Below are positions 4,366-30,806 of a stretch of DNA of 32,326 nucleotides, one piece after another. The stretch's first letter is position 1, and every line of letters begins with the position of its first letter. Origin of the DNA: a virus; the IMG/VR virus record IMGVR_UViG_3300028840_003343, positions 1 through 32,326 of that record; one strand, given 5' to 3'. Under the pieces are notes generated by a model, which made no database searches, had not been told where the DNA came from, and saw only the letters and a program-made list of their open reading frames with translations. The position numbers and the translations under genes are program-made.

Positions 4366-5553
4366 CTAGCTCCCTGAGCGAATCAGCTCAATCGAACGTT
4401 TCTCGCAAAGGCTCATGGCGCCATCCACCTTTTTGCACGCCTCTACCACTTGCGGAGGAGCATCCACTCCCGCGTCCAAAGCGTCTTTCGTCAACTGGTT
4501 GAGTTTCTTCCTCATGTCCTGAAGCTGTCCGGACACCTTGGTCACATCCGCCACCAGTTCATGGGCTGGCTTCTGTTCGAGCAGGGCCAGATCCGGAAGA
4601 CTCCGAACCGCTGCGTCTGCCAAGTCGGAGATAGCAAGCGCCTTGTAACCGAAGGGGTCTGCCGCCAGGCCAATCACCTTGCTCATTCTGTCCTTGTCCG
4701 TGTGCTGGTCCCACAGGCTATTGGACAGCGCCCTGAAATCCTCCGGTGTGATGTGCTTTCTACCGTTGATTACCGCTGAGGCTCTCAGAATGGCCTTGGC
4801 TTTGACCCACCGCCTGTCTGACACCGTGAACCCTGCGTCCTTGATTCCCGCCTTCACATCCAGCAGGAGGCCGACTGGAACGCCTTCCAGTGGGATGGTC
4901 TCGGCAATCTCGCGAAGCTCTTCGATGTCTCCATCCTCCAGGTGGTTCTCGATGTCGCTCACGCCGTCCACAAGAAGCGCTTCCATGTTGTCTCTGTCAG
5001 AGATGTATTCCACCCAGAAGCGAACAGTAAACCTGTCGAACAAAGCCTCCAGCCCTTCGTCGTCGTCTGGGTATTCGTTCGACGCTCCCACGGTGATTTC
5101 CAGGGGCATCTCCTCAGCCCCATCACCATTCACGAACATTCGCTCCTCCAGCGCCATCAGCAACGACTGGAGAATAGCTGGCGACGACTTGAAGATCTCG
5201 TCTGCGAAGAACACCGACGCCTCCGGAAGACGCATACTCGTCACCCTTCTGAGCTTGTCCTTCTTCAATCCCTCGAACGACACCGGCCCAAAGATGTCGT
5301 CCATCAGCGTGAACTTGCCCATGAGGAACTGGAAAAAACCACCCTTGGCCATATCACCCATCGCGTCTGGGGTGATCGTCTCGTAGAACTTCCGGACCAG
5401 GAGTGACTTCCCTGTTCCCGGAGGCCCCAGAAGCAAAACGTTCTGCATGGCGATCAGCGCGATGAATAGACCATCGACCACCTGCTCCCTCTCCTTGAAC
5501 TTCGACTTCAATTCTTCACGCACCGCTGCGAGTCTTTCGATTGCACTGCTCAT
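4366..5553 (-). CDS. MoxR/RavA-type AAA+ ATPase
   Basis: The 395-residue protein carries Walker A GPPGTGKS (43-50), Walker B VFFADEIFKSSPAILQSL (114-131), sensor-1 GASNEYPDDDEGLEALFDRF (156-175) and a C-terminal helical lid. The wording of Walker B and sensor 1 (bulk of DEIFKSSPAIL, SNE followed by LEALFDRF) is that of the RavA branch of MoxR ATPases. It is shorter than E. coli RavA (about 500 residues), mainly at the C-terminus. AAGGAAAGGAA precedes the ATG. It lies directly upstream of the ViaA-like gene and downstream of a small acidic protein, all under promoter P2. It is expected to form an ATP-driven hexamer that remodels a complex with the VWA partner. CobS/CobT-type chelatase is unlikely because no cobalamin genes are near. 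Confidence 0.9.
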   Translation of the reverse strand: MSSAIERLAAVREELKSKFKEREQVVDGLFIALIAMQNVLLLGPPGTGKSLLVRKFYETITPDAMGDMAKGGFFQFLMGKFTLMDDIFGPVSFEGLKKDKLRRVTSMRLPEASVFFADEIFKSSPAILQSLLMALEERMFVNGDGAEEMPLEITVGASNEYPDDDEGLEALFDRFTVRFWVEYISDRDNMEALLVDGVSDIENHLEDGDIEELREIAETIPLEGVPVGLLLDVKAGIKDAGFTVSDRRWVKAKAILRASAVINGRKHITPEDFRALSNSLWDQHTDKDRMSKVIGLAADPFGYKALAISDLADAAVRSLPDLALLEQKPAHELVADVTKVSGQLQDMRKKLNQLTKDALDAGVDAPPQVVEACKKVDGAMSLCEKRSIELIRSGS

Positions 5554-10335: not shown

Positions 10336-11697
10336 CTAGGCGTGAAGCTCTGTTGTCACATCCAGCTCTGCCTCGCCCAACACCCAAATGTCCGGGAATG
10401 TTATTTCCTCGGAGCTTCTGACCTGAATCAGGTGGGTGTGTGCAGGCTTCATGTAATCGGCAATACGCCGAATTATTTGTTCTTCTTCCGACGTTAGCAC
10501 GTCATCCGTCTCAATGTCGAATGAATACAAAGTCGCGCTCTCGCTCGGACCTAGTATTGTTCCACCGGTTCCGGACGCCGCTGCGTCCTCACCGAATTGC
10601 CACCCCATGGCGTCGTAGAGATCTCCTCCGAGAAGCTCTATCTCAGCATGTTCTCCAACCGTGGTCGAATAGATGGCCAGGTTGCTTGTGTCGACCCCGG
10701 CAACTGTCGCCGGCGAGAAGTTGAGAATCGCCGCCGCTGTGCCTCCAACGATGTCGATTGTAGCTGTCATTCCTCGCTGGATCGTCGCCAGGCGCACCCT
10801 ACGGCCACTCATTCCCTGGATCTCGGCGCCCTGGGCGTTGATTACACTCGGAGCCGTCAACATCAATCTGGCTGCAACCTCGTCCGCCGTGGCCGTCCCT
10901 GGAGTCACGAAGTCGTACGGCCTGAACACCGCCGTGTACGACTGCCCTTCTATCTCGAACACGAGGGTCTCTCCGCCCACCAGGTTGAAGGTCTCTGCGT
11001 CTGAAATGGTGACACCATGGGTTCCCGGATGCACCGACCTCGCCTTTGCACCCAGCAACTGCGCATTGAGAGACACCACGATCTCCTCTGTCTCTACCGC
11101 CGCTGGGTCTGCCACGTCTCCTATGTTGAGTTCCACCGTCTCCGTGGTCGTCTTGTCGACCAGCATCTCAAGATCAAGCGGCCAGGTCAGGCCGCTGAAA
11201 TCGTACGGCTCTCCCGCCGGCGACACAACCTCTGCGATACCGGCCTCTCCAAGCTCGTCCTCCCCAAGGGACCATCCCTCTACGGCGTAGGGGATAACTC
11301 TCACGGTCTTGTTGAGCAGGAAGAACACTACGCTCTCGATGCCGATGTCTGTCCCCTTGAGCTTGTAGATAGCCACCAAATACCGGAGCAACTTCTTTTC
11401 CTGGTTCTCTGTCAGCTCCAGCTCGGTCCAGTCCTGAAATGGATTACCCATGTCTCTGAGCATCTGCCGGATTACGTCGATGTCTGCCTTGTCCGGATCT
11501 CCCAACTGCTCCGGGAACAGGTCCAGGTCGTACAGAAGATGATCGAGAACTTCCTGCCAACAGTTGACGATTCTCCGCAACGCCCTGGTGACATCCTTCT
11601 CCCTTGCTTTCTGCGGAATCACTTGCCTCCAGAGATCGAAGAACCTTCCCTGTGGCTTTGGAGGCGTGAACCCTGTGAATGTCGCTGTCGTTGTCAT
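10336..11697 (-). CDS. gpI-like tail/baseplate protein with inserted domain
   Basis: The ATG at 11697 overlaps the previous stop (ATGA). Residues 1-170 match the P2 gpI type: an N-terminal helical bundle with DLFPEQLGDPDKADIDVIRQ, then LRYLVAIYKLKGTDIGIES (105-122). The matching C-terminal element, EEEQIIRRIADYMKPAHTHL, is at 404-423. P2 gpI is about 180 residues, so this 453-residue version carries an insertion of roughly 230 residues. The insertion includes the recurrent GGTA domain (234-328). gpI is a baseplate wedge component that links to the fibre, and here it directly precedes the fibre gene. The C-terminal 30 residues (FPDIWVLGEAELDVTTELHA) are extra. Confidence 0.82.
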   Translation of the reverse strand: MTTTATFTGFTPPKPQGRFFDLWRQVIPQKAREKDVTRALRRIVNCWQEVLDHLLYDLDLFPEQLGDPDKADIDVIRQMLRDMGNPFQDWTELELTENQEKKLLRYLVAIYKLKGTDIGIESVVFFLLNKTVRVIPYAVEGWSLGEDELGEAGIAEVVSPAGEPYDFSGLTWPLDLEMLVDKTTTETVELNIGDVADPAAVETEEIVVSLNAQLLGAKARSVHPGTHGVTISDAETFNLVGGETLVFEIEGQSYTAVFRPYDFVTPGTATADEVAARLMLTAPSVINAQGAEIQGMSGRRVRLATIQRGMTATIDIVGGTAAAILNFSPATVAGVDTSNLAIYSTTVGEHAEIELLGGDLYDAMGWQFGEDAAASGTGGTILGPSESATLYSFDIETDDVLTSEEEQIIRRIADYMKPAHTHLIQVRSSEEITFPDIWVLGEAELDVTTELHA

Positions 11698-23759: not shown

Positions 23760-24374
23760 CTATTCTCCCCACGTCCGTACCATGCCGACTTCTAGATGAT
23801 CCTGCATGGTGATCCTTCCGAGTGGAGCCTCCTTAAACGACACTGTAGCTCTCACCTCGCGCAATCTGTCCTTCTGGTCGAGCTGGTCAAACGTGATATT
23901 CACGTCTTGGACCTTCACTCGAAGCGTGAGAATTCCTGGTAAGCACAAAATGAACGGTGCTGTCTCTCCTGTGATAACTCCGGATGGAGCCGCCGCCGGC
24001 AACACACTTGCCTCCAGAAAACGACGCGACGCCTCTACGTAGTCGTGTGCCTCATCCAGCGTTACACCTGTGTCCTTCACGTACATGAGAGAGTTCCAGT
24101 ACAGCGCAAAAGAAATAACCGGGCCGACAGTGTTTCTGAAGCTCTGAAACTCTCCCGACATTCCTACCGGAGCGAAGTCCTGGTAGTTGGCTCTCAGCTT
24201 CTCGCTAACCTGCTTCGGAGAGAACATGAACCTCATCGTGTCGGACACCAGCTTGCTTATGTCCGGCTTGAGCAGCATGTTCTTCAGGTAGCCCCTGGAG
24301 GCATCACTGAAGTTCTTCGCAATGCCCGACGTGTTGGGATTTTGCGGCTTGTTGCTAGGTGACTCTTCCGCCAT
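23760..24374 (-). CDS. Tube-initiator/hub protein resembling CIS-tube family
   Basis: The ATG at 24374 overlaps the tape-measure stop (TAATG). Of 204 residues, 1-45 are a flexible lead (SPSNKPQNPNTSG). From about 48 the pattern FMFSPKQVSEKLRANYQDFA, then NTVGPVISFALYWNSLMYV, then TAPFILCLPGILTLRVKVQD and RLREVRATVSFKEAPLGR resembles the tube-initiating protein encoded before LysM genes in eCIS and many myoviruses (PF19266-like). The identification rests on strand pattern and gene order. It would cap the inner tube at the hub. An unknown baseplate protein is the alternative. Confidence 0.72.
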   Translation of the reverse strand: MAEESPSNKPQNPNTSGIAKNFSDASRGYLKNMLLKPDISKLVSDTMRFMFSPKQVSEKLRANYQDFAPVGMSGEFQSFRNTVGPVISFALYWNSLMYVKDTGVTLDEAHDYVEASRRFLEASVLPAAAPSGVITGETAPFILCLPGILTLRVKVQDVNITFDQLDQKDRLREVRATVSFKEAPLGRITMQDHLEVGMVRTWGE

Positions 24375-26971
24375 TAGTAACCTCCAAACTCAGAGACCGG
24401 GATGTCGGTATCCAAGCTTGTCTCTGCATCTTCTTGTGCATCGCTTTTGAGTGCGCCTCTCAACTCGGAAGCATTCACCTTCACTGAGAACTTCGCATCC
24501 TTGATAGCCTTAACAATGTCTCTACCCATTGCCGCCGAAAGCAGATCTGGAGAAATCTCATCACCTGCCTTCATCCTGAAGAACATCTCCTTCATGGCAC
24601 CTGTTCTGCGCTGTCGCTCAAGCTGCGCCCTGGACAATGCCGCTGTCTCTGCGTACTCATCCTCTTTGCCAAACAGCTTTGCTCCAGCCTCTCCAAGATC
24701 GACGCCGGCGCGACCGGTTTCTCCATACGCTCCTTCGACACCTCTGAGCTGTCGATACAGAATTCGCTTCTTCGCTGCTTTGGATTCTGCTTCGTCTCCG
24801 AATAGACCGGTCCACATATCTCCGAAGTTGCTGACCATGCCACCGATGGTGTTTTTCACGAACAGCACCAACACTCGAATGGCGTGATACACGACAGCCA
24901 CTGTCTGTCCGATCTTCTTCAACACTGTCCAGATGGTCTTAAAGACCTCCGCAATCTCATGCAGTCCGTTGATGACATCCTCTGCTGTGAGGTTGGCCAT
25001 CCACTCGACTGCCTTCTTGCCGAACTTGATGAAATGGTTCAGGGCCTTCAGGGCAATCTCTCCGAAGCTCGCAAGCTTCTTTCCGAGGCCCTCGCCTTTT
25101 TCTCCCCAGTCAGCAAGCACCGCTGCTGAGTTCTCCGCATCTCCCGTGAAGGTGCCGAACAGAGTCTGCATCGTCGCAATGAGCTGCTTCATGGCGCTCG
25201 ACTCCGATAGAGCCGCAACGCCTTCGTCGAATCCTCGCTTGATACCTTCCCACATGGCCTTCATGCGCTCGACGAACCGTTTGAAGCCGTTGACGAAGCC
25301 AAGGACGCCTTCGTTCCCTGCTTTGCTCAGCTCCTTGTTCATCTTCTTGCTCAGCTCACCCTTCCCGATGATCTGAACAACAGCTCTCCAGCCAAGCTTT
25401 ATCTTCTTGACCATGTCCTCCCACGAGTCGCCGATGCCACCCGTGTTCTTCTTGAACGCTCGGAACGCTGCGTACGCTGCGACACCGAGACCTGCCAAGA
25501 GGATGGTGAGCGGAGCCAGTACCAGGACGAACTTCACGAGAGCGAATACCAGTCCGCCGATTGAAACACCGAGCATACTCATGATGCCCTTGAGAATGAA
25601 CAGGCCACCAACCATCGAGATCAGCGTGCCGAGGCCACCGATGAACGCGATGATTACCTGTCGCGCCTCCATGGGGATGGTGTTCAAGAACCCGGCGATT
25701 CCGGAGATGATCGTGTAAACCACCTTCGACAGCGGCTTCAGCACCTTTGCCGCGGCCTCTCCAAGGACAGTCAGCAGACCCTCCTTGGCACCTTCAATCA
25801 ACTTGCGCTGGCCCTTGAGCGTATCGAGCAGCTCCTCTCGAAACTTCTCTGCTGCGCCAGTGGAGCCTTGAAGGGCCTCTCCCACTCCCTCGATACCAAT
25901 CTGCGCTTCAAGGGACTCACGCTTGAAGTCGCTCATCGCGTCGGTAGCGTGCATCATCTCCAAGCGAAGTGCCGCGATGGCCTTCCTTCCCTTGAGGTTG
26001 TGCTTCACGCCGTTGACGGTGATTGTCTTCTGCGCCTGGGCAATGGCGTTGAACGCGGCCATGCCCCTGGTACCGAAGGCCAAGGTGGCCATGCGCATTC
26101 TCTCTTTATCTGTCATCTTCTTCGTCGCATCGGCAACATCGAACATCACGTCGATGAACTCTCGCGCTTTGCCGGTGCGCTTGTCAAAGATGTCAATGCC
26201 CTTGCGTGTGATGAGCTGCTGCGCCCTCTGATCGGAGGCCATTCGTCGCCACGCTTCTCGCAGCGAGGTGGACGCAACACTCGCCTCGACGTTCATGTTC
26301 CGCAGCGCACCCATGGTGATGAGCGTGTCGTCGAGGTTCTGCCCGTAGATCTTCGCCGTAGATGCCGCCCTTGAGAGACCGACATCGAAATCCCTGGCCT
26401 GGAAGTTCGTGAGCTGCGTGATCTTGAGCAGCTTGTCTGTGACAACGGCTGCGTTGCTTGCCTCCATGCCGAACGCCTTGAGCGTACCGACAACGGCATT
26501 TCCTGCCTCCGCCAGGCCAAGCTGGCCCAGCGAGCCTGTGGCAAGGTCAAGGACGGGCTTGAGAGCCTCCACCGCTTCCCCTGCGCTCAGACCTGCCGCA
26601 GCGAGGTTCTGGAGGCCCTCCGTCGCCTCCTCTGGACTGAACTGGGTTGCCATAGCCGCATCGAGCGCGGCATCGTGCAACCCCTTCATTTCTTTGGCAG
26701 TAGCCCCTGTGATGACTCCAATTCCGGCAAGGTTTTGCTCAAACGTCGCCGCTGCATCCGACATCGCGGTGATCGAGCCGGTCATAGCCTTCCCGATCTG
26801 TCTCGCTTTCATTCCGATGGCCATGGCGCCGAGGGAGCTGCTCATGGTGGCAGCCCCTCCGACGACCGTTTTAACCATGCCCATGAATCTGCCGGCGACT
26901 CGTGCAAAGACGGGAGATGCGGCATCCCTACCAAATATCGTAAAACCCGCACCGAATTGATTCATCGCCAT
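24374..26971 (-). CDS. Tape measure protein
   Basis: The ATG at 26971 follows TGAGGT; a second ATG lies two codons later. Its 865 residues include a PhageMin_Tail-type core (about 70-310): FEQNLAGIGVITGATAKEMK, then SPEEATEGLQNLAAAGLSAG, then DVGLSRAASTAKIYGQNLDD, TMGALRNMNVEASVASTSLR and RMATLAFGTRGMAAFNAIAQ. Residues about 415-505 are strongly hydrophobic (VIIAFIGGLGTLISMVGGLF, FVLVLAPLTILLAGLGVAAY), a usual feature of tape measures that insert in the membrane. A long helical C-terminal part follows. At about 0.15 nm per residue, tail length would be near 130 nm (inference). It lies between the frameshift chaperone and hub genes, as expected. Confidence 0.93.
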   Translation of the reverse strand: MAMNQFGAGFTIFGRDAASPVFARVAGRFMGMVKTVVGGAATMSSSLGAMAIGMKARQIGKAMTGSITAMSDAAATFEQNLAGIGVITGATAKEMKGLHDAALDAAMATQFSPEEATEGLQNLAAAGLSAGEAVEALKPVLDLATGSLGQLGLAEAGNAVVGTLKAFGMEASNAAVVTDKLLKITQLTNFQARDFDVGLSRAASTAKIYGQNLDDTLITMGALRNMNVEASVASTSLREAWRRMASDQRAQQLITRKGIDIFDKRTGKAREFIDVMFDVADATKKMTDKERMRMATLAFGTRGMAAFNAIAQAQKTITVNGVKHNLKGRKAIAALRLEMMHATDAMSDFKRESLEAQIGIEGVGEALQGSTGAAEKFREELLDTLKGQRKLIEGAKEGLLTVLGEAAAKVLKPLSKVVYTIISGIAGFLNTIPMEARQVIIAFIGGLGTLISMVGGLFILKGIMSMLGVSIGGLVFALVKFVLVLAPLTILLAGLGVAAYAAFRAFKKNTGGIGDSWEDMVKKIKLGWRAVVQIIGKGELSKKMNKELSKAGNEGVLGFVNGFKRFVERMKAMWEGIKRGFDEGVAALSESSAMKQLIATMQTLFGTFTGDAENSAAVLADWGEKGEGLGKKLASFGEIALKALNHFIKFGKKAVEWMANLTAEDVINGLHEIAEVFKTIWTVLKKIGQTVAVVYHAIRVLVLFVKNTIGGMVSNFGDMWTGLFGDEAESKAAKKRILYRQLRGVEGAYGETGRAGVDLGEAGAKLFGKEDEYAETAALSRAQLERQRRTGAMKEMFFRMKAGDEISPDLLSAAMGRDIVKAIKDAKFSVKVNASELRGALKSDAQEDAETSLDTDIPVSEFGGY

Positions 26972-26980
26972 TCGCGAACC

Positions 26981-27963
26981 TCATTTTCCAAATGCGGATT
27001 TGTATTCAGCTCGACGCGCCTCCGAGATCATATCAAGTAGTTTATCGACCTCATCAAGCGATACATCAAGCGTCTCACCCCACCGCATCGATAGCCCACT
27101 GCCAAACAAAGGCAGCCAAGCTAGCTCAAATCGTTGTCGGAGGATGTCTCCTTCTGAGGTTCCTCCGAGGATGCCAGCCCAAGGCGGCGTTCCTTCTTCC
27201 GCTTCCTGGCTCCACGGGCTGGGGACCAGAAGCTGTCGTCGAAAGGGAGGTCAATCTCGTATGTGCCTCGGCATTCCGGGCATTCAAGCTCCACCTCCGT
27301 GTCGATACCGACGTCGTACTTGTCGTAGAGATCCCGAAGCACCTCCGCGTCTGCCGACGTAATTCCTTCAAATCCTCCCTTGCCCTCGCCGTCCAGCCAG
27401 TTGATGATCTGGTGGTCCGGCACGCCCTCAACGGACGTAAGTCTCAGGCAAAGGGCAACGGCCATCGCTCTCTCAGGCCACTTCTTGCGAAGCTTCTGAC
27501 CCTTGGTGATGTCCCTCACAAACGAGGGAGCGAACTCAACCTTCTTGCCGGCCACCTCGCCGGTGAATGGCGTCTTGCTTTTTACCGCCGCGAACATTTC
27601 GTCCGAAATCGACTGCACCGAGAACTCCTCGCGAAGGTTCGCCTCCGCTGTGTTCAACGAGCGACAATACGGACACTGAGAACGGAACTCGTACAGATGC
27701 CCCTCATCGTGGGTGACCATCCGCAGCTCGAACATCGTTGCGAACCGGTCTCCCTGAAGCATGTTCATCCAGTTCGGCCTCGTGCCGAGATTCTCGTACG
27801 GACCTGGGTCCGTGATCTCCACACAGCACGCCGCCAAAACCTGATTCAGGGCCTCTTCAGCTCTCTTTCCCTTGGTAGACGCAAGGATGCTCTCTTCGCG
27901 CAGCGTGAGCGCACGTAGAACCATCTTGAGCCTGGACGGGAGTGTTACTTCTGCTTGTCTCAC
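26981..27963 (-). CDS. Tail assembly chaperone, -1 frameshift long form (G-T type)
   Basis: This is the predicted product of a -1 slip at C CCT TTC (27247-27241). Residues 1-241 come from the zero frame; 86 residues follow from the -1 frame, giving 327 residues ending at the TGA at 26981-26983. The -1 frame opens just two codons before the slip site, has no stop for 87 codons, and reads as good protein (RRQLLVPSPWSQEAEEGTPP; MRWGETLDVSLDEVDKLLDM). The stop lies nine bases before the tape measure ATG. Lambda-type G/GT chaperones use the long form to bind tape measure and tube subunits. Confidence 0.82.
27121..27963 (-). CDS. Tail assembly chaperone, unshifted form (T4 gp26-like domain, zinc knuckles)
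   Basis: It starts with GTG at 27963 after AGGAGAAGAAC and ends at the TAG at 27121 (280 residues). The N-terminal part (LKMVLRALTLREESILASTK; NMLQGDRFATMFELRMVTHD) resembles the gp26-like family found between tube and tape measure. Two knuckles, C97-X2-C100 and C228-X2-C231, could bind zinc together. The last 40 residues are basic, then polar (GARKRKKERRLGLASSEEPQ) and are skipped in the shifted form. The position between tube and tape measure is that of tail assembly chaperones. The hub-protein reading (gp26) is the alternative; the frameshift favours the chaperone. Confidence 0.85.
   Translation of the reverse strand: MRQAEVTLPSRLKMVLRALTLREESILASTKGKRAEEALNQVLAACCVEITDPGPYENLGTRPNWMNMLQGDRFATMFELRMVTHDEGHLYEFRSQCPYCRSLNTAEANLREEFSVQSISDEMFAAVKSKTPFTGEVAGKKVEFAPSFVRDITKGQKLRKKWPERAMAVALCLRLTSVEGVPDHQIINWLDGEGKGGFEGITSADAEVLRDLYDKYDVGIDTEVELECPECRGTYEIDLPFDDSFWSPARGARKRKKERRLGLASSEEPQKETSSDNDLS
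27201..27247 (-). promoter_or_regulatory. Programmed -1 frameshift signal: C CCT TTC plus stem-loop
   Basis: Heptamer CCCTTTC at 27247-27241 lies in frame as X XXY YYZ (codons CCT 27246, TTC 27243). A 7-nt spacer (27240-27234) follows, then a stem-loop: 5' arm GCTTCTGGTCC (27233-27223), 9-nt loop (27222-27214) and 3' arm GGAGCCAGGAAGC (27213-27201), 11 pairs with two bulged G residues. Spacer length is in the 5-9 nt range of known stimulators. Confidence 0.78.
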
Positions 27964-28055: not shown

Positions 28056-28514
28056 CTAGGCGACCTTCGCCTTCTTCCAATGGTCGTAGGCGATGACGAT
28101 GCTCTCGATCTTCACTTCGGAAGCATCCTTGTCCCAATCTCCTGCCGAATACCGCTGGATGAAAGCGTCGTACACGGTGTAACGTGCCAACTCTTCACCA
28201 TCACGGTCCAACTGAACGATGTCGACGTTGCGGAACAGCGTCGGCTCCGGCTGACCGGTACCCGCCGCAGCGTTGTAGCAGTCGATCATCCAGTTGTAGA
28301 AGTCGTAGTCGTCCGCCATGCCACGTTCCATGGTGATGTCCGGATACGTGACATTGCCGGGTGCCTGATGTGGGTGCGCTCGTTTGCCTTCTCGATGAAC
28401 AACCTTCTCGAACTCTACCGCGAATTCGGAGCAGGTCTTGAGTCCGGCCCTTGCGATGCCCTCGATCTCGACAACGAACTCGAACTTCTTGTCGAATTTT
28501 ACTGGCGTTGCCAT
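28056..28514 (-). CDS. Tail tube protein (gp19/gpFII type)
   Basis: At 152 residues, close to the T4 gp19/Phage_T4_gp19 family, with its typical strand order: KFDKKFEFVVEIEGIARAGL, then KTCSEFAVEFEKVVHREGKR, PGNVTYPDITMERGMADDYD, RNVDIVQLDRDGEELARYTV, and SAGDWDKDASEVKIESIVIA at the end. The ATG at 28514 follows AGGAGGGAAG. It forms the inner rigid tube inside the sheath, stacking as hexamers. It lies directly downstream of the sheath gene, the standard myovirus order. Confidence 0.95.
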   Translation of the reverse strand: MATPVKFDKKFEFVVEIEGIARAGLKTCSEFAVEFEKVVHREGKRAHPHQAPGNVTYPDITMERGMADDYDFYNWMIDCYNAAAGTGQPEPTLFRNVDIVQLDRDGEELARYTVYDAFIQRYSAGDWDKDASEVKIESIVIAYDHWKKAKVA

Positions 28515-28526
28515 TGTCTTCCCTCC

Positions 28527-30806
28527 TTACACACCAAGGCTTTCGACGTAGGCGCGTGTGTCCTGGGAGACAACTACAGGGATGAACTCCGTCGGTTTGT
28601 TCATAGCCAAGCCGAGCTTGATGTTCATCACGCCTGCGAACTCGTCCGCCGGAGTGTTGATGGCGTCCGAAGTGTTCACATAGAACGCCTCGTCCGGGTT
28701 CGTGCTTCTGAAAGCGTTCTTCGCCATCTCGCGAAGCAAGAACGCTGTGATGATACGGTTGGCCAATGCGCGGTTGGCCTTGTTGTTCGGGCGATGCTTG
28801 AGAACAATCAGCCCGGCTTTGATGGTCTGCTCGATGTGGATAGCGCCGCGACGCTCCGCCACCGATGGGAAGTTCCCGGTCGACTTGAGGGTCCTGGAAC
28901 CGTCGATGTGCCAGGTCGTTCCCTCCAGTTTGGTGATCGGGTTGATGCGTTTCGGGTAGATGAGATCCCGCTTGCCTTCGTCGAGGACCTGATGTTCCTC
29001 GGCGCCGCCGGGGTCGTCTTCCACTCCGAGCATTCCGGAGATGACTCCCCAATTGGAGAGCGTACCAGCCGGCTGCTCGTAGACACCACCGTTCCTGCCG
29101 TCATTGCGAGCCATGAGACCCGCGATGTGACCGGACGGTGCCACCGCGATAGCATCGTCGTCACCGAAGACCGCCGTCGAGGGGTTCGGAATCTTGATTC
29201 GAGGCCAGTAGATGGCTCCGAACTCCGAACGCTCCAGGAGCGACGCAGTAGTCTCCACGTAGGTGACCATCTGCTCGGCGGTGTAACCCTCGGGTGGGTC
29301 GAGAACGCAGAACATGGACCCGAGCCTGGTTGTCTCGGCGTAGGTCAACATGCCCTGGTGAATCGCCGGCGTCGCCTTTCCGGGGACGATCAAGATGCGA
29401 CCACCGCTTACGCGGTCGAAGCAGTGCAATCCCGTCGGCCCGGCGGAGGAACCCAAGTAGTCGATGTCGACGATACCCGTGAGGCCGTCGTCACCGCCGG
29501 TGAGCGTCGAGGAAGTGCCGTTCGCCGGTCGCTTGAGCAACGCGGAGTAGGCAAGACCTTGGTCGGTCACCGCTATCAGCTTGGAGCCGAAGTTGGCGTT
29601 GTTCACCACCTTCTCGACGTAGTTCGCTGCCGAGTCGTCCATGGTGACATTCGGGAAGGTCTCCGTGACAACACCGTCCGACAGAACCTGGAAGTTGAAC
29701 TCCGCTGCCGTGCCACTGGTGGCGTCCGCAACCACGGTGGAGATCTTGTCGCCGAACGCGCCGGGAGTCTTCCCGTCGACTTTCAGCGTGTCCTCCGGAG
29801 TCGCATCGGCACCGGTGTGCTGCGTGTTGTCGAACCCGAATTTGCCGTCAGCGGTGGAAGTGGCTTCCACACGTACCCACGCCGACGCGCCAACAGTCAG
29901 AGTCTCGATGGACATCTCGCCACCGGACTCCTGGGACACGGCCACGTTGGACACCGCACCTTCCACAACAGCTTCGATTTCGGATGCTGTGGGATTGGCG
30001 AGGTCCGCTACGTTTCCGGTACCCGCATAGACGCCTACGGTGAAGTCGAGCAACGGAGCTACGCCAAGCGCTGTACCGCCGATGATCTCCAGGCGAGCGC
30101 CGCTGCCTGCTTGATCGGTCTCGATCTTCACTGCGGTTGTGTCGTCGGTCACTTTCGCGCCGTTGATCACCGCATTCAAGGCCGCTGCGACCTCGGCCCT
30201 GGTGGCCGAACCCGGCGTGACGATGAACCCTGCGCCGATGCTGAGCGTCTGAGTCGGCGCCGTCGCTGCGGGACCGACTTTCACGATGACCGTCTCACCT
30301 CCGGATAGGTTGTACGGCCCGGCTCCACCTGTGGAGGCTTTTCCGGTTCCGCCATTGAACGTCGCGGTCGTCGGTCCACCGAGTTCCGTCGTAATGTCCA
30401 ATGTGTCACCGTCCTCCAGTGGGACAGGCAGAGCGTTGGTTCCGGTCACCTTGCCAGCCGAGTCCGCGGTGCCTGCTGTCTGAAGCATTCCCGTGGATGC
30501 GGCTGCCGTTGCCGATGCCGGAGTGTTGATGTCTGTGAAATGAACGGTTCTCACCGTCCAAAAGAATAGACCGCCGTTCTGGTAGAAGCCGTACGATGCA
30601 AGCGCCAAATCAGCGTCTGCCGTGAAGCCTCCCCACAGGTCTACCCATTGGTCGAAGGATGTCGAGAGCTGTGCGTCCGCGATCTTACCTCGCTCGGTGA
30701 CGCCGCAGCCAAGCACTACGGCGCTTGCCAAAGCGGCAATCGCTGGAACTTTTGGCTCCTCTTCGAGAATGACGACCTTCGACGAGAGAAATTCCGTCGA
30801 TGCCAT
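28527..30806 (-). CDS. Contractile tail sheath protein with inserted domains
   Basis: The ATG at 30806 follows GGAGGGAGC. Of 759 residues, the N-terminal part (1-95, ending GGLFFWTVRTVHFTD) and the C-terminal half (about 460-759: MLTYAETTRLGSMFCVLDPP, FGAIYWPRIKIPNPS, APSGHIAGLMARNDGRNGGV, RRGAIHIEQTIKAGL, FRSTNPDEAFYVNTS) match the Phage_sheath families. The conserved Pro/Gly-rich segment APSGHIAGLMAR is the hallmark. Between them, an insertion of roughly 300 residues includes the GGTA domain (166-257) and a degenerate second copy (268-326), probably displayed on the sheath surface. T4 gp18 is about 660 residues with similar surface insertions. Confidence 0.95.
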   Translation of the reverse strand: MASTEFLSSKVVILEEEPKVPAIAALASAVVLGCGVTERGKIADAQLSTSFDQWVDLWGGFTADADLALASYGFYQNGGLFFWTVRTVHFTDINTPASATAAASTGMLQTAGTADSAGKVTGTNALPVPLEDGDTLDITTELGGPTTATFNGGTGKASTGGAGPYNLSGGETVIVKVGPAATAPTQTLSIGAGFIVTPGSATRAEVAAALNAVINGAKVTDDTTAVKIETDQAGSGARLEIIGGTALGVAPLLDFTVGVYAGTGNVADLANPTASEIEAVVEGAVSNVAVSQESGGEMSIETLTVGASAWVRVEATSTADGKFGFDNTQHTGADATPEDTLKVDGKTPGAFGDKISTVVADATSGTAAEFNFQVLSDGVVTETFPNVTMDDSAANYVEKVVNNANFGSKLIAVTDQGLAYSALLKRPANGTSSTLTGGDDGLTGIVDIDYLGSSAGPTGLHCFDRVSGGRILIVPGKATPAIHQGMLTYAETTRLGSMFCVLDPPEGYTAEQMVTYVETTASLLERSEFGAIYWPRIKIPNPSTAVFGDDDAIAVAPSGHIAGLMARNDGRNGGVYEQPAGTLSNWGVISGMLGVEDDPGGAEEHQVLDEGKRDLIYPKRINPITKLEGTTWHIDGSRTLKSTGNFPSVAERRGAIHIEQTIKAGLIVLKHRPNNKANRALANRIITAFLLREMAKNAFRSTNPDEAFYVNTSDAINTPADEFAGVMNIKLGLAMNKPTEFIPVVVSQDTRAYVESLGV

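Follow-up and report, generated by a model that had tools for sequence, protein, structure and literature searches.

A conserved C_CCU_UUY heptamer and a second coding frame point to programmed -1 frameshifting in a PF12322 phage tail gene

Does the gene between the tail tube and tape-measure genes of the virus record IMGVR_UViG_3300028840_003343 yield one protein or two? The window analyzed here is the whole of this IMG/VR record, 32,326 bases in length, and its tail genes lie on the minus strand. The zero-frame open reading frame (ORF) of the gene (27121..27963, minus strand) begins with GTG and encodes 280 amino acids. An original prediction, made from the letters of the DNA, proposed that this ORF belongs to a tail-assembly chaperone gene carrying a programmed -1 frameshift cassette. 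Our analysis supports that proposal through the position of the gene, its in-frame heptamer and the conservation of the latter among relatives. Because of this position and architecture, we consider it very likely that the gene encodes a tail-assembly chaperone of the lambda G/GT type, with -1 programmed frameshifting at a conserved slip site.

The slip site and the second reading frame

The heptamer C_CCT_TTC occupies positions 27241..27247 (minus strand) in the phase originally predicted, and the in-frame codons CTC CCT TTC specify L239-P240-F241. Counted from the first C of the heptamer, the -1 frame has 88 open codons, equal to 86 after the heptamer. This extension, the T part of the presumed product (26981..27247, minus strand), closes with a TGA at 26983-26981, and the tape-measure ATG follows 9 nucleotides (nt) later; both the codon count and the nine-base gap agree with the prediction. 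The zero frame, which would give the G form, stops at a TAG at 27123-27121. The dual-coding overlap (27121..27240, minus strand) measures 117 nt after the heptamer, plus the zero-frame stop, close to the 120 bases anticipated. ORF calling did miss the cassette, since no -1 ORF of at least 60 amino acids is on the ORF list. A TGA blocks the -1 frame two codons upstream of the heptamer, again as described for the window. However, only 4 of the 7 tabulated lineages have a -1 stop at this upstream distance; in the remainder the distance is 15 to 205 codons, and the TGA does not count among the conserved elements of the cassette. The other in-frame XXXYYYZ of the gene, GGGAAAG at 27871, was rejected as a slip site, being distant from the overlap and not common to the relatives. 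CTCCCTTTY occurs once in the window against 0.79 occurrences expected by chance, so that its significance has to come from comparison with relatives.

Scans of viral contigs and bacterial genomes yielded relatives that represent, together with the window, 13 distinct lineages with pairwise protein identities of 36-76%. CTC-CCT-TTY is in frame at the aligned Leu-Pro-Phe in all 13. A homologous -1 extension is likewise present in 13/13, and a check for relatives devoid of both heptamer and extension returned none. The arrangement of zero frame and -1 extension is conserved in these relatives. Of the fully conserved residues for which four or six codons exist, only L239 and P240 keep a single codon in every lineage; invariant Leu, Pro, Arg and Gly residues elsewhere differ in codon. 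With each lineage's own codon usage taken into account, the joint probability of the two frozen codons is ~10^-17 (log10 P about -17), a figure overstated by the relatedness of the lineages; the contrast with the other invariant residues stands, because those residues do vary in codon.

The comparative patterns also identify the -1 frame as a real coding frame under purifying selection. The extension spans 88-111 codons across the 13 lineages and ends within ~11 nt of the tape-measure start. The zero-frame stop falls 57-150 nt past the heptamer, and the overlap length is always a multiple of 3; lengths that differ in steps of 3 imply that both frames persist. Past the zero-frame stop, the -1 frame is free of stops in all 13 lineages, whereas the two remaining frames contain 31 and 33. 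In the same region, divergence at codon positions 1, 2 and 3 of the -1 frame is 0.39, 0.29 and 0.65, resembling the main gene, and nonsynonymous divergence (pN) is lower than synonymous divergence (pS). The extension has a conserved core, LRFxLSWLPLFGxGL, and a profile of the extension finds exactly one place per contig in the 12 contigs searched (E 1e-33 to 1e-43). A tblastn search of the phage collection with the extension as query gave no match.

Mechanism, stimulators and alternative explanations

In the proposed mechanism, most ribosomes would continue in the zero frame and produce the 280-residue G-like form. A minority would slip back by one base with CCU in the P site and UUC in the A site; in this tandem slippage, tRNA-Pro would re-pair from CCU to CCC and tRNA-Phe from UUC to UUU. 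The slipped product would be a G-T fusion of 327 residues, the final 86 of which derive from the -1 frame. If the two forms act like those of lambda, the tape measure would be coated by G and tube subunits brought in by T, in a G:GT ratio set by how often ribosomes slip.

A putative stimulatory bulged stem-loop is located at 27201..27233 (minus strand). The predicted structure and its 7-nt spacer from the heptamer are both present, though the fold counts 12 pairs (-14.2 kcal/mol) and not the 11 first proposed. A hairpin starting 7-8 nt past the heptamer can be drawn in most lineages, and when the lineages are combined its stability somewhat exceeds that of dinucleotide shuffles (z = -2.8) and of synonymous recodings (z = -3.1). 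A search of Rfam gave no match.

Several results weigh against a frameshifted chaperone gene. The hairpin of the window is no stabler than its shuffles (z = -0.85, with 40 of 200 folding as well), the sliding-window energy profile has no unique peak at its position, and RNAalifold detects no covarying consensus structure across the lineages. Given the lack of covariation and of a unique energy peak, a stimulatory role is only plausible, and the hairpin is the weakest part of the cassette. Nor was a conserved upstream Shine-Dalgarno stimulator found across the lineages. Slippage, like its rate and the chaperone function, is something we infer, and the efficiency of C_CCU_UUC would depend on the tRNA supply of the host. 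Furthermore, proteins of PF12322, the family to which the zero-frame protein belongs, carry the annotation "baseplate hub" and not tail chaperone. Finally, a structure search of the PDB produced no significant match, with the HK97 chaperone 2ob9 at rank 46 (E = 5.3), and the solved tail chaperones have no sequence link to the zero-frame protein either. Known G proteins have little sequence in common, and the failed PDB match therefore bears on HK97-type homology more than on the working principle.

The extension could instead be a separate small gene, translated by internal initiation or translational coupling, as is apparently the case in KVP40 and S-SM2. These related phages have a stand-alone small ORF at the equivalent place (KVP40.0327 and SSM2_011), and a GTG or TTG with a Shine-Dalgarno-like sequence lies near the core of the extension in L004, L005 and L013. 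In the window, however, the first ATG, GTG or TTG of the extension is codon 46 of 88, after the start of the core (here RFELAWLPLF), and several other lineages are likewise devoid of a start codon ahead of the core. No conserved start codon was found in the extension across the lineages. Internal initiation was rejected as a general explanation on these grounds; it also leaves the frozen CTC-CCT codons unexplained, and we regard it as very improbable.

A shift by some other route, either transcriptional slippage or the slippage of a single tRNA at another point of the overlap, appears less probable still. The short runs CCC and TTT allow some slippage, and a second in-frame XXXYYYZ is found downstream in L005 and L034 (CCCGGGT, CCCGGGC), but polymerase slippage typically needs runs longer than three, and C_CCT_TTY is the only site common to all lineages. 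The remaining alternative is that the heptamer is kept merely for Leu-Pro-Phe, the -1 ORF being due to chance or to a sequencing error that splits one gene. Leu-Pro-Phe is indeed invariant in the zero-frame family, and about one CTCCCTTTY is expected in a window of this size. Yet the codons are as invariant as the residues, other invariant Leu, Pro and Arg positions vary freely, and both frames are kept in independent contigs. We give this alternative virtually no credence, as the alignment of relatives already refutes it. Programmed -1 slippage at C_CCU_UUC is our favored interpretation.

Gene neighborhood and the PF12322 family

The minus-strand gene order is sheath, tube, the 280-residue gene, tape measure and then baseplate genes. 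The upstream neighbor is a tail tube protein of the T4 gp19 family (28056..28514; PF06841, E 1.5e-29), and the downstream neighbor is an 865-residue tape-measure protein with its ATG at 26971 (24374..26971; PhageMin_Tail, E 2.5e-33; phrog_1533, E 5e-48). The 759-residue sheath of the contractile tail (28527..30806) matches phrog_17610, tail sheath (E 2.4e-44). This protein is without a Pfam match and strongly matches phrog_15814, listed as of unknown function; because it matches phrog_17610 as well, phrog_15814 can probably be named tail sheath. The 280-residue protein is also encoded, with 100% protein identity, in a 78-kb IMG/VR contig (L002). Elsewhere on the minus strand, the window encodes an AAA ATPase (4366-5553; phrog_19600, E 1.5e-71); another of its proteins (10336-11697) matches CobT weakly, under the Pfam cut-off.

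The zero-frame protein falls in PF12322 (T4_baseplate) with 26.3 bits against a curated cut-off of 24.5; its relatives L027 and L036 score 49.2 and 27.0. It also matches phrog_150 (E 1.6e-9). The AlphaFold2 model is of high confidence, with a predicted local distance difference test (pLDDT) score of 86.8, and Foldseek identifies the hub subunit of SP-15 as its best match (E 2.8e-16), followed by T4-like hub proteins. The predicted structure thus has the fold of PF12322 members.

PF12322 includes both T4 gp26 and T4 gp51, which are paralogous (hhalign 99.5%) and are listed as hub-assembly chaperones (PMC3004832). The G part of the window aligns with those of SP-15, LIS04 and GXN1 (hhalign 99%, E 4e-19), and its direct matches to the gp26 and gp51 profiles are weak (1.4% and 0.4%). 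Judging from these profile comparisons, the window protein is linked to T4 by way of PF12322 and the SP-15 group. In GXN1 (L014, 5638-6004), SP-15 (L015, 5551-5872), LIS04 (L016, 5569-5875) and Mel-JY01 (L038, 2641-2929), a second-frame ORF, either unannotated or annotated separately, overlaps the equivalent gene. These extensions, located at Phe-Phe codons, use the +1 (= -2) frame and probably represent a +1 or -2 frameshift; CCCTTTY is not present at the SP-15, LIS04 and GXN1 overlaps. For SP-15, the tail of the extension alone is annotated, as SP15_046. In KVP40 and cyanophage S-SM2, gp26 is followed by a small separate gene, ahead of the next large gene, which is tape-measure-like. These small hypothetical genes just past gp26, KVP40.0327 (L050, 3322-3489) and SSM2_011 (L039, 3696-3869), resemble stand-alone T-like proteins. 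We also note that in the uncultured 595-kb phage LR756511 (L041, 3121-3391) a -1 extension overlaps the PF12322 gene at a run of Gly-Phe-Phe-Phe, possibly a separate frameshift.

A T-ORF profile was built from SP-15, LIS04, GXN1, KVP40 and S-SM2. It matches the C-terminal tail of gp51 (hhalign 82-92%, E ~1e-5 to 1e-6), with none of 60 column shuffles scoring as well, and has no match to gp26, to the N-terminal part of gp51 or to anything else tested. The T-like tail comprises the C-terminal ~48 residues of gp51 (T4 gene 51, L037, 8480-9229; also gp51 of L044 and L045). In a six-frame search of whole T4-like genomes, the same profile detects gp51 tails only, in Aeromonas phage 31 (E 8e-5) and Proteus phiP4-3 (E 0.005), and there is no match in T4 itself or in five other T4-like genomes. 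Two PF12322 genes are found in T4, Aeromonas 31 and Xman; one is found in KVP40, S-SM2, SP-15, LIS04, GXN1 and, where detected, the relatives of the window. Because the profile matches the gp51 tail and the PF12322 copy number fits, we hypothesize that T4 encodes the pair as separate paralogues, with gp26 as G and gp51 as G plus a T-like tail. The weak link is the T part of the window clade, for which no similarity to the gp51/SP-15 type could be detected. Its homology to the gp51 tail was tried and found no support (hhalign 0.1%, 51 of 60 shuffles as good), and its similarity to the SP-15-type T is marginal (hhalign 1.3%), the two T parts not being alignable. T parts in the PF12322 family may therefore have separate origins.

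Taken together, we lean toward the view that in contractile-tailed phages the PF12322 "baseplate hub" proteins act as the G chaperones. The pair would be encoded by -1 frameshifting at C_CCU_UUY in the window clade, by a +1/-2 overlap at UUU codons in SP-15, LIS04, GXN1 and probably Mel-JY01, by a separate T gene in KVP40 and S-SM2, and by duplication in T4 and its relatives.

Comparison with known systems

In lambda, gpG and gpGT form a tail-assembly chaperone pair produced by -1 frameshift, and in most long-tailed phages it is G/GT frameshifting, as reviewed in PMC5009743, that fixes the stoichiometry of tail assembly; T4 is the named exception. The window gene resembles lambda G/T in its place between tube and tape measure and in its overlapping second-frame ORF, reachable by a -1 shift at an in-frame X_XXY_YYZ. 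It differs in the slip heptamer (C_CCT_TTC versus G_GGA_AAG), in having a 280-residue PF12322 G with CxxC pairs in place of the small helical gpG, in a T part that has no detectable similarity to any named family, and in the contractile tail of the phage. The original prediction set the heptamer apart from the common slippery sequences of this gene class, GGGAAAG and AAAAAAG. It is indeed unusual in a phage chaperone, yet hardly exotic, for C_CCU_UUU, of the same class, is the slip site of West Nile virus (PMC11507841), although that is a eukaryotic virus with a pseudoknot stimulator and an unrelated gene.

Frameshifted tail chaperones are already known; what is new is the G family and the slip heptamer. 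In the largely open-access literature searched, we found no report of C_CCU_UUY as a phage-chaperone slip heptamer and no paper that joins PF12322 with frameshifting or equates gp26/gp51 with G/GT, the latter idea being only provisionally new. The deeply conserved heptamer would be added to the slip sites of bacterial viruses.

SP-15, LIS04 and GXN1 share with the window a PF12322 G between tube and tape measure and an overlapping second-frame extension, and their hub genes are probably without an annotated extension. T4 gp26 and gp51 belong to the same Pfam family as the window protein, but the two PF12322 genes of T4 come with no frameshift ORF, whereas the window clade has a single such gene with a -1 extension. 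At its C-terminus, gp51 carries an additional tail that resembles the T ORFs of SP-15, LIS04, GXN1, KVP40 and S-SM2. A precedent for such a two-gene scheme exists in phage 0305phi8-36, where gp143 and gp144 are a two-gene tail chaperonin with G and GT as separate paralogues and no frameshift (PMC2147016, which is silent on T4 gp26/gp51). A frameshift cassette inside the gp26/gp51 family suggests that T4 kept a two-form chaperone and split it into two genes. If so, the exception of T4 to the G/GT frameshift would be explained, and the essential protein gp51 would gain a function.
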